This document shows, piece by piece, positions 19,647 through 22,710 of a DNA stretch of 64,000 nt (positions are counted from its first letter, which is position 1; each line of letters starts with the position of its first letter). The translations under genes were made by a program, and so were the position numbers. This DNA comes from Alloalcanivorax marinus (GTDB lineage: Bacteria > Pseudomonadota > Gammaproteobacteria > Pseudomonadales > Alcanivoracaceae): the NCBI RefSeq assembly GCF_016906305.1, contig NZ_JADDOL010000007.1, forward strand, positions 62,001 to 126,000. Reading direction: 5' to 3'. The notes beneath the pieces were generated by a model, which had not been told where the DNA came from, ran no database searches, and saw nothing but the letters and a program-made list of their open reading frames with translations.

Positions 19647-19702
19647 GCGCGCCGTCGCGCTAGCCTGCGCCGGTGGCCAGAAAACCGAAGGGGGAGACGC
19701 GC

Positions 19703-21085
19703 ATGCAGGCCTTGAAAAGATTGGACGATCTGACCGTAAAAACCAGCTGGAGCCTGGTGCTGGCCGCCTTTGCCGCCATGTTGCTGCTGATCGGCGCGGT
19801 CAGTGGCTATGCCAATCATCACAACCGGGACGCCTTCCGCGCCCTGGACCGGGCGCACCAACAGCGCACCGACACCCTGCGCGACGCCTACGAGACCCTG
19901 CTGCGGGAAACCCGGGCCCTGTCCCCCGGCCAGGCCGAGCAGGCCGCCGACCAGGTGCTGTCCGCGTCGCGCACGGCCCTGGACGGGCGGGTGGCCGACT
20001 TCGAAACCATGGCGGACCGGCTGGATGCGGTGCTGGCCGGCGTGCTGTTGGCCTCCCTGGTGCTGGTGGCGGTGGTGCTGTGGGGCATCACCGTCAATGT
20101 GATCCAGCCCCTGCGGCGGGTGGCGGCGCACTGCGAGCGTTTGGCCGCCGGCGACCTGTCCGAGCCGGTGGAGCGCCGGGGCGGCAACGAAATCGGCCAG
20201 CTCTACAACGGCCTGGGACGGATGCGCGACAACCTGGCGGCCATCGTCGGCCAGGTGCGCGCCAGCAGTGACACCATCCTGGACGGCGCCCGCCACATCG
20301 CCGCCGGTAACGGTGGCCTGTCGGCCCGCTTCGAGCAGCTGGCCGCCGCCCTGGAGCAGACCTCGGCCAGCATGGAAGAACTCACCGCCACCGTGGCCAA
20401 CAACGACGAGCACGCGCGCCGCGCCGACGAACTGTCCCAGGGCGCCAGCCGGGTGGCCCACCGGGGCGGCGAGGCGGTGCGCGAGGTGGTCACCACCATG
20501 GACGAGATCCGCCAGGGCGCGGAGCGCATCCGGGGCATCACCGACCGCATCGAAGGCATTGCCTTCCAGACCGACCTGCTGGCCATCAACGCGGCGGTGG
20601 AAGCCGCCCGCGCCGGCCAGCACGGCCGGGGCTTCGCGGTGGTCGCCGGCGAGGTGCGCGCGCTGTCGCAGAACACCGCCGCCCTGGCCAAGGAAATCAC
20701 CGAGCTGGTGGGGGATACGGTGCGCCACATTGAGCGCGGCGGGGAGCGGGTCGACCAGGCGGGGGCCACCATGAGCGAAATGCTCGAGGCGGTGGATCAG
20801 GTCACCGGCATCATGGCGGCGATCCGGGTGGCGTCCGGCGAGCAGACCCAGGGCATCGGTCAGGCCAGTCAGGCGGTGCTGGAGATGGATCGGGTCACCC
20901 AGGCCAATGTGGGGCTGGTGGCCGACGCCGCCGGCGCCGCCGCCCGCCTGGAGGGCCAGGCGGACACCCTGCGCCGGGAGATGGCGGTGTTCGTGCTGCC
21001 TCAGGCGCCGTCGGCGGCCAGCGCGCGCAGACAGGCCTCGGTGTCGTCCCAGCCCAGGCAGGCGTCGGTGATCGAGACGCCGTAG
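19703..21085 (+). CDS. methyl-accepting chemotaxis protein
   Basis: 460 residues. Two membrane segments (about residues 15-37 and 111-134) flank a short, mostly helical periplasmic part of about 75 residues. A HAMP domain follows (about 135-190), then the cytoplasmic coiled coil with the hairpin tip [21 protein letters not shown]. The usual FQTN is FQTD here. AAGGGGGAG precedes the ATG; a GTG 30 bases upstream is in frame but lacks such a site. The last 85 bases overlap the 3' end of the convergent aroG gene. Confidence 0.93.
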
Positions 21086-22062
21086 GCCAGTTCCCCGGTC
21101 AGCGGCTGGTTGCCACCGCGCAGGTGGCTCTCCAGCATCACCCCGGCCACGGTGCGGTCGCCGCCCCGCCGTTGGGCGAGAATGTCCTCCAGCACCCGGG
21201 GCTGCCGGGCCGGATCCTTGCCGCTGTTGGCGTGGCTGCAGTCCACCATCAGGCGCGGATTGAGCCCGGCGGCTTCCAGCGCCCGGCGGGCGGCGGCCAC
21301 GCTGTCCGCGTCGTAGTTGGGGCCGCGCCGGCCGCCGCGCAGTACCAGATGGGTGTCCGGATTGCCGGCGGTCTGGATCAGCGCCGGGTGGCCGTGATCG
21401 TCGATGCCCAGATGGGCGTGGGGGTGGGCGGCGGCGCCCATGGCGTCCCGGGCCGCGCCCAGTTCGCCGTCGGTGCCGTTCTTGAAGCCCACCGGCAGAT
21501 CCAGGCCGCTGACCATTTCCCGGTGAATCTGGGATTCCGTGGTGCGCGCGCCGATCGCCGCCCAGCTCAGGGTGTCCGCCAGGTAGTCCGCCGCCAGCGG
21601 GCTGAGCAGTTCGCTGGCCAGGGGCAGACCCAGCTCCGCCAGGTCCAGCAGCAGCCGGCGTGAGCGGCGCAGGCCTTCGGCCAGGTCGCCGCGGCCGTCC
21701 AGATGCGGGTCATAGAGCAGCCCCTTCCAGCCCACCGTGGTACGCGGTTTCTCCACGTAGGCGCGCATCACCAGCAGCAGCCGGTCCTCGGTGGCCACGG
21801 CCAGGTCACGCAGCCGGCGGCCGTACTCCAGGGCCGCGTCCGCGTCGTGCAGCGAGCAGGGCCCGGCGACCACCAGCAGGCGCGGGTCGTCGCCGCGCAG
21901 GATGGCGCGCACCTGGTCGCGCTGTTGTTGGATACGCGCGGCGGTGGCTCCGGACAGCGGCAGCGCCTCGCGCAGCGCGGCCGGGGAGGGCAGCGGCTGG
22001 GCGCGGCGGGGCGACGACGGCAGGTCCGAGGCGTCGCGGACGGCGGCAAGACTGGCGTTCAT
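21001..22062 (-). CDS. aroG: 3-deoxy-7-phosphoheptulonate (DAHP) synthase, class I
   Basis: 353 residues. It condenses phosphoenolpyruvate and erythrose 4-phosphate, the first step to Phe, Tyr and Trp. Key motifs: [69 protein letters not shown] and [10 protein letters not shown]. Which aromatic amino acid inhibits it cannot be told. AAGGAACAAGG lies before the ATG at 22062. A terminator hairpin and an aromatic leader peptide sit just upstream, implying control by attenuation. Symbol is generic (aroF/G/H not distinguished). Confidence 0.95.
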
Positions 22063-22082
22063 ATCCTTGTTCCTTTTTCCAT

Positions 22083-22115
22083 AAAAAAACCCCCGGTGGG
22101 CAGCCAACCGGGGGT
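22083..22115 (-). terminator. aroG leader terminator (attenuator)
   Basis: On the minus strand, a perfect nine-base-pair stem (ACCCCCGGT with its complement, nine-base loop) is followed by seven T, only 21 bases before the aroG ATG. A terminator inside a leader, after an aromatic-rich short reading frame, is the hallmark of transcription attenuation. Confidence 0.88.
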
Positions 22116-22123
22116 TTTTCGGA

Positions 22124-22204
22124 CTTCTTCGGCGGCGGCCCGGGTCGGGCGCGCCTGCCGGGTACGGTCAGGCGCGCGAGCGGCTAAACCAATACCCGAA
22201 GAAG
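22124..22204 (-). promoter_or_regulatory. alternative pairings in the aroG leader RNA
   Basis: Two mutually affecting structures can be seen on the minus strand. The Phe-codon segment CTTCTTCGG (22196-22204) is exactly complementary to CCGAAGAAG (22124-22132), which lies just before the terminator. A separate nine-base-pair hairpin GCGCGCCTG/CAGGCGCGC (22149-22157 with 22169-22177) spans the leader stop codon. Ribosome position on the control codons would decide which forms. Confidence 0.6.
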
Positions 22205-22284
22205 AAGACAACGGCGCACGCCAACGCGCCCCGGGCCGAAGGCCGGGTGCCGGGAAGCAGGCGCTGTGACGTGATACCGTGCAT
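22168..22284 (-). CDS. aroG leader peptide (attenuation)
   Basis: 38 residues starting MHGITSQRLL. Residues 27-33 read Phe-Phe-Phe-Gly-Tyr-Trp-Phe, six aromatic residues in seven codons, covering all three products of the pathway. AGGAG stands seven bases before the ATG. The stop lies 53 bases before the terminator hairpin (22083-22115), which in turn precedes aroG. When charged aromatic tRNAs are scarce the ribosome would stall on these codons and favour read-through. The residue pattern, position and terminator support each other. The peptide itself need have no function. Confidence 0.8.
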   Translation of the reverse strand: MHGITSQRLLPGTRPSARGALACAVVFFFGYWFSRSRA

Positions 22285-22329
22285 TGAATTCTCCTGATAA
22301 TGGGCCGAGCTTACTAAGGAAACACCGCC

Positions 22330-22710
22330 GTGTACACCCTGATCAAACACCTGCACGTGACTCTGGCGGCCGCCAGCATCACCTTGTTCACGATCCGCGC
22401 CTGGTGGTCGGTGCGCGATGCGCCGGTTTTGCGCCGGCCCTGGGTGCGGGTGCTGCCCCATGTGATCGACACCGGGCTGCTGGCCTGTGGCGTGACGCTG
22501 ATGGTGATGCTGCGCGTCTGGCCCCAGCAGACCCCCTGGCTGGCGGCCAAGCTGGTGGCGCTGCTTGTCTATATCGGCCTGGGCACGGTGGCCATCAAAC
22601 GCGGCCGTTCCGCCACCACCCGCGCGGCCTTCGCGCTGCTGGCGATGGCGGTATTCGCCTACATGGTAGGGGTGGCGGTGCGCCACCACCCGGCCTCCTG
22701 GCTCGGCTAG
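22330..22710 (+). CDS. SirB2-family membrane protein
   Basis: 126 residues with four hydrophobic segments. YTLIKHLHVTLAAASITLFTIRAWW, LPHVIDTGLLACGVTLMVML and WLAAKLVALLVYIGLGTVAIKRG match the SirB2/DUF family of small inner-membrane proteins of unknown role. It is divergent from the aroG leader, so the two share an intergenic region of 45 bases. Confidence 0.85.
   Translation: MYTLIKHLHVTLAAASITLFTIRAWWSVRDAPVLRRPWVRVLPHVIDTGLLACGVTLMVMLRVWPQQTPWLAAKLVALLVYIGLGTVAIKRGRSATTRAAFALLAMAVFAYMVGVAVRHHPASWLG

Follow-up and report, generated by a model that had tools for sequence, protein, structure and literature searches.

The window, i.e., the whole 64-kb stretch of DNA analyzed, contains on its reverse strand the gene of a type I DAHP synthase, which is preceded by a short leader open reading frame (ORF) and an intrinsic terminator (Table 1). 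The earlier note had described a 38-codon frame with a good ribosome site and Phe-Phe-Phe-Gly-Tyr-Trp-Phe near its end, a perfect hairpin with seven T and then the DAHP synthase gene, and these elements are all present; the C-terminal end of the leader reads ...VVFFFGYWFSRSRA, and the ATG of the synthase gene lies about 20 nt past the T run. The ribosome-binding site and the FFFGYWF run give a short ORF with clustered product codons, the translation of which is predicted. Among the 760 short ORFs (10–60 codons) of the window, this leader is the only one with at least six aromatic residues in eight codons, and the chance of such a cluster is about 3e-5 per 38-codon ORF, with the 64-kb window itself as background for the chance estimates. 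The terminator is the sole case, on either strand of the window, of a perfect stem of at least eight pairs followed by six T, and the folding of the 208-nt leader has a z-score of −4.7 relative to shuffled sequences. Since the upstream neighbor, a SirB-domain protein gene, is divergent, the terminator can act only on the DAHP synthase transcript.

A possible promoter is located directly upstream of the leader and matches the consensus weakly; similar TTGnnn-N17/18-TAnnnT sites recur at approximately the same place in relatives, and a stricter promoter scan upstream of the leader returned none. The candidate extends into the first codons of the divergent SirB-domain gene. At the other end of the locus, the 3′ ends of the DAHP synthase gene (reverse strand, ending at 21001) and of a methyl-accepting chemotaxis protein gene (forward strand, 19673–21085) overlap by about 85 bases.

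Table 1 Features of the leader region and its neighbors, ordered by position in the window; segment partners are those of the proposed switch
Feature	Position	Strand	Remarks
Type I DAHP synthase (aroFGH family), putative regulated gene	21001..22062	-	353 aa; ATG at 22062; TIGR00034 aroFGH, PF00793
Intrinsic terminator (E:F)	22083..22119	-	AAAAACCCCCGGT...ACCGGGGGTTTTTTT; seven T at 22083-22089
Match to Rfam RF00627 (P15)	22090..22210	-	Whole model 1-119; 65.2 bits, E 9.7e-13
Segment E (terminator 5′ arm and loop)	22098..22114	-	CCCCCGGUUGGCUGCCC; its CGGUUGGCUGCCC pairs with D
Auxiliary pairing segment	22124..22132	-	CCGAAGAAG; complementary to CTTCTTCGG at 22196-22204
Segment D	22130..22141	-	GGGCCGCCGCCG; partner C (off) or E (antiterminator, on)
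Segment C	22148..22157	-	CAGGCGCGCC; partner B (on) or D (off)
Segment B (ORF end, stop and beyond)	22160..22177	-	GCGCGCCUGACCGUACCC; partner A (off) or C (on)
Leader peptide ORF	22168..22284	-	38 codons and stop, MHGITSQRLLPGTRPSARGALACAVVFFFGYWFSRSRA; ORF kept in 66 distinct loci
Segment A (Gly-Tyr-Trp-Phe codons)	22184..22197	-	GGGUAUUGGUUUAG; partner is the 3′ part of B
Control codons Phe-Phe-Phe-Gly-Tyr-Trp-Phe	22186..22206	-	From sequence and modeled stalling
Leader ribosome-binding site	22291..22296	-	CAGGAG; sequence inspection
Possible promoter	22308..22336	-	TGTACA-N17-TAAGCT
SirB-domain protein gene, divergent upstream neighbor	22330-22710	+	PF04247

The element matches the P15 family of Rfam and scores below the gathering threshold of RF00627 (65.2 versus 70 bits), so that under Rfam's rule it counts as related to P15 rather than as a member. 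P15, the closest precedent in historical terms, comes from P. aeruginosa, where it was identified as an sRNA (Livny et al., as cited in PMC2375449), and synteny with a TPP riboswitch led to the suggestion that it might be a riboswitch (PMC2527527). In one Pseudomonadaceae-like family, 41 of 59 genomes carry P15, 38 of the 59 with scores exceeding 70 bits, and all of the 20 P15 loci inspected contain a leader ORF of 38–44 codons ending ...GYWFS(R/H/Q/Y).... The copies in these genomes thus share with the window the leader ORF, the terminator, the structure and the neighborhood with a DAHP synthase gene, whereas the Rfam entry treats P15 as an sRNA gene and has a model that starts inside the leader ORF and misses the ORF start. 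In the open-access literature, we found no function for P15 and no account of attenuation for P15, PA1750 or the leader of the Pseudomonas DAHP synthase; subscription papers could hold one.

Conservation of the arrangement is close to complete. The leader is carried by all of the 30 closest DAHP synthase loci, mostly with [FY][FY][FY]GYWFS at its C-terminal end, and each of the 66 distinct leader and terminator elements, which come from related genera, is located 13–287 nt before a DAHP synthase, with Phe, Tyr and Trp present in all 66 leaders. The named records, which include Pseudomonas, Stutzerimonas, Alcanivorax and Halotalea, have the DAHP synthase directly downstream in 76 of 80 cases, and in the other four the available sequence ends 154–552 nt past the leader. 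No aromatic leader was found before other DAHP synthase paralogs (about 50–55% identity) for which upstream DNA was available. The earlier note had named as evidence against attenuation any relatives that keep the gene and lose the aromatic codons or the terminator; the 30 closest loci offer no such exception. Neither do the 18 genomes of the Pseudomonadaceae-like family without a P15 match, 16 of which have only the paralog of about 50–55% identity; one has this paralog and a contig-edge piece of the closer DAHP synthase, so that 17 of the 18 have no intact copy of the latter or a contig-edge piece only, and the last, an incomplete genome, gave no match. Leader and isozyme are thus lost together in these genomes. 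A covariance model built from 44 elements found diverged versions of the leader in further families (FYGYWFSHGVPLADA, FFWWFGYGFYFSQSRGRP, CGWWFGYGYYFSQRPGRP and VYWYFAEYFFGYYFSQQLDHR). Weak matches of this model (L087, L094, L096, L097, L102–L104, L106–L110, L112 and L116), with no DAHP synthase nearby, were rejected as chance terminator matches.

The substitution pattern in the leader indicates what selection retains. In the 52 leaders of common geometry, codons −12, −10 and the one between them encode Phe or Tyr in 44, 50 and 46 cases, respectively; the two residues swap freely, and TTT, TTC, TAT and TAC are all in use. Because of this swapping and the use of all four codons, it is the amino acid class and not the RNA sequence that is kept at these positions, and the aromatic residue itself is under selection before Gly-Tyr-Trp-Phe. 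At −8 to −6, the Tyr-Trp-Phe codons hardly vary, being TAT-TGG-TTT in 50, 52 and 51 of the 52 leaders, and fall inside an RNA helix, A:B. Codons −6 and −5, TTT-AGC (Phe-Ser), are kept almost everywhere in the 66 leaders, even where helix A:B differs, and helix pairing accounts for their conservation only partly.

The RNA can be divided into six segments, A to F, with F being the 3′ arm of the terminator, and these form two compatible sets of helices, i.e., A:B, C:D and E:F for termination, and B:C and D:E for antitermination. A first alignment evaluated with RNAalifold showed little covariation, because the sequences of close relatives differ too little and the region past the stop codon misaligns, a problem that was solved by including divergent relatives. 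In the test used here, the pairing of each segment with its own partner was compared with its pairing with partners from other sequences, using either 23 representatives of less than 80% identity or nine sequences, one per family-level group. Own partners were favored for A:B (p 2e-5), B:C (p 5e-4) and D:E (p 2e-5) among the 23 representatives, and for A:B (p 4e-4), B:C (p 2e-4) and D:E (p 1e-5) among the nine family-level sequences; the value for C:D (p 2e-5, 23 representatives) is biased since segments C and D had been delimited from the hairpin of each sequence itself. B:C, for instance, is GGCGCGCC/GGCGCGCC in Alcanivorax versus GGUGUGCC/GGCACACC in L080, and D:E is GGGCCGCCGCCG/CGGUUGGCUGCCC in the window versus GUGCUGCCCACC/GGUCGGCAGCAC in L037. 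An antiterminator mutually exclusive with the conserved terminator, which lies between leader and structural gene, is thus present in D:E, with 11 pairs in the window and covariation across families.

Simpler switches were rejected. A four-segment model of the trp type is ruled out as the segment past the stop codon does not overlap with the terminator arm, so that one more alternative helix is required. A direct helix between control codons and terminator arm (A:E), as well as B:E, B:D, C:E, A:D and A:C, showed no own-partner excess (p 0.08–0.996 for these six non-model pairings among the 23 representatives, and p >0.16 among the nine sequences). The earlier note had emphasized the complementarity of the Phe-codon segment CTTCTTCGG to CCGAAGAAG just before the terminator, which is exact; however, this helix is kept only in close relatives, being shortened in L006–L008 and replaced by TTCTACGG/CCGTAGAA in L014, and the lack of conservation rules it out as the switch. 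The hairpin that the note placed across the leader stop codon does exist (GCGCGCCTG/CAGGCGCGC).

Taken in this order, the segments suggest how translation could govern the DAHP synthase gene. With no ribosome on the leader, A:B, C:D and the terminator E:F would form and transcription would stop. A ribosome stalled on the Phe, Tyr or Trp codons would cover A and leave B:C and the antiterminator D:E to form, upon which RNA polymerase would read through into the DAHP synthase gene. With Phe, Tyr and Trp all in ample supply, the ribosome would proceed to the stop codon and cover A and B, and C:D would form together with the terminator.

To calculate the dependence on ribosome position, a ribosome of assumed footprint was placed at each codon in turn, and the transcript, extending as far as the terminator loop, was folded under equilibrium conditions. 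For the window, 11 D:E pairs are predicted with the A site at V, V, F, F, F, G, Y, W or F, nine at the preceding Ala, three at the next Ser and about eight at the stop codon; upstream positions mostly give about one pair, except for an isolated far-upstream position that scores high. On average, relatives of common geometry show a peak of about 11 pairs at codons −12 to −6 versus 5–7 downstream and 5–9 upstream, whereas in the divergent L037 and L111 the calculated D:E pairing barely shifts with ribosome position. The choice of structure is therefore predicted to depend on stalling at the control codons, weakly so in a few divergent relatives. In the window, modeled stalling frees the antiterminator at these codons and almost nowhere else. 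Once the whole transcript is folded, the terminator is the most stable structure in every ribosome state. The decision of the switch must therefore be kinetic, as it is in known attenuators.

Attenuation of the DAHP synthase gene by an aromatic leader peptide, the reading proposed in the earlier note, is strongly supported by conservation, by substitutions among aromatic codons and by covarying helices. Very probably, the element is a ribosome-mediated transcription attenuator that ties one DAHP synthase isozyme to the supply of charged tRNA-Phe, tRNA-Tyr and tRNA-Trp, and we infer that uncharged tRNA stalls the ribosome, and that premature termination and read-through occur, in the cell.

This reading has to be weighed against others, among them that P15 and related elements act in trans as small RNAs transcribed from this intergenic region, with the ORF being incidental. 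The Rfam entry as an sRNA gene and the discrete short RNA predicted from the terminator would agree with this, and there is precedent for leader RNAs and peptides that act in trans, namely peTrpL of Sinorhizobium meliloti (PMC7298713). However, a trans role needs neither the ORF, the aromatic codons and the downstream DAHP synthase, which every examined copy keeps, nor mutually exclusive helices that covary and are tied to ribosome position, and we consider it highly improbable as the explanation. For a riboswitch, i.e., direct binding of an aromatic amino acid or another metabolite to the leader RNA, one may cite the suggestion made for P15 (PMC2527527), the long, conserved and structured leader with its terminator, and the nearly invariant nucleotides in GGGTATTGGTTTAGCC; these nucleotides, however, form the covarying helix A:B, and the swapping of Phe and Tyr codons with free third positions agrees with selection for the residues that are translated rather than for an aptamer. 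No Rfam riboswitch class was among the matches of a permissive scan, and ligand binding by the RNA is highly improbable as well.

It could also be the nascent peptide, GYWFS(R/H/Q), that stalls the ribosome on a free amino acid, in the manner of TnaC with tryptophan, and the very strong conservation of the Trp-Phe-Ser core, which is beyond the need of codon counting, points in this direction. However, conservation extends to the nucleotides (TAT in 50, TTT in 51 and AGC in 49 of 52), which helix A:B can explain; moreover, L037, L095 and L113 have Arg in place of Ser and L086 has Met, and the aromatic order differs in other families (FWWFGYGFYFS, YWYFAEYFFGYYFS), leaving peptide arrest a very slim chance.

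Attenuation is organized in the same manner in the his operon leader, where six segments form A:B, C:D and E:F in the off state and B:C and D:E in the on state. The window shares this six-segment logic and is a weak match to the corresponding Rfam family, RF00514 (25.7 bits, E 0.058), but it remains below the 49-bit cut-off and has no run of His codons, while RF00514 leaders have His codons and precede other genes. In E. coli, pheL/pheA, pheM/pheST and trpL/trpE likewise combine a product-rich leader peptide with a terminator and an antiterminator, but each senses a single amino acid and controls terminal-branch or synthetase genes; the Rfam families Phe_leader and Trp_leader gave no match in a permissive scan of the window region. 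The E. coli DAHP synthase genes are under the TyrR and TrpR repressors (PMC11802643).

An attenuator leader before a DAHP synthase gene is not without precedent, a correction to the earlier note, which had regarded a leader sensing all three aromatic residues at the pathway entry enzyme as no standard example. The nearest system in function is that of C. glutamicum, in which the aroR leader with its Phe-Tyr-Phe run controls the DAHP synthase (aroF) operon (Neshat et al. 2014, as summarized in PMC11802643; predicted in PMC4046766) and is reported to respond to Phe limitation and not to Tyr, with Trp unmentioned (PMC11802643). Both leaders are short, rich in aromatic codons and control, or in the present case would control, a DAHP synthase through ribosome stalling; aroR, however, belongs to another phylum and is reported to respond to Phe only. 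Going by the description of aroR and its Phe-Tyr-Phe run, the shared design looks like convergence.

The element thus represents a family that is new and widespread, of a regulator type already known, and it provides P15, an RNA family known in Pseudomonas from the work of Livny et al. onward and so far unexplained, with a function. Across this part of the Gammaproteobacteria, entry into aromatic biosynthesis would be controlled by translating codons for all three product amino acids, with the leader as a compact three-input switch, and, in contrast to E. coli, not only by repressors. For strain engineering, feedback-free expression of the DAHP synthase in Pseudomonas would need removal of the leader. 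That the terminated leader RNA (P15) or the aromatic peptide additionally acts in trans on other genes, by analogy with peTrpL, is unlikely; if it did, Pseudomonas and its relatives would signal the supply of aromatic amino acids to other pathways.

The family extends well past the P15 of Rfam. Leaders of changed aromatic order (FFWWFGYGFYFSQ..., CGWWFGYGYYFSQ... and YFWWYGFGYFSQ...) occur in L092, L093, L098, L101, L114 and L115 (family f20) and in L111 and L105 (f40), where the RNA is much altered, yet is positioned before a DAHP synthase. In L035, from another order of the same class, an Alcanivorax-like leader, MYFYGYWFSRYGV, precedes a DAHP synthase of 70% identity, and leader and gene may have moved there jointly by horizontal transfer.
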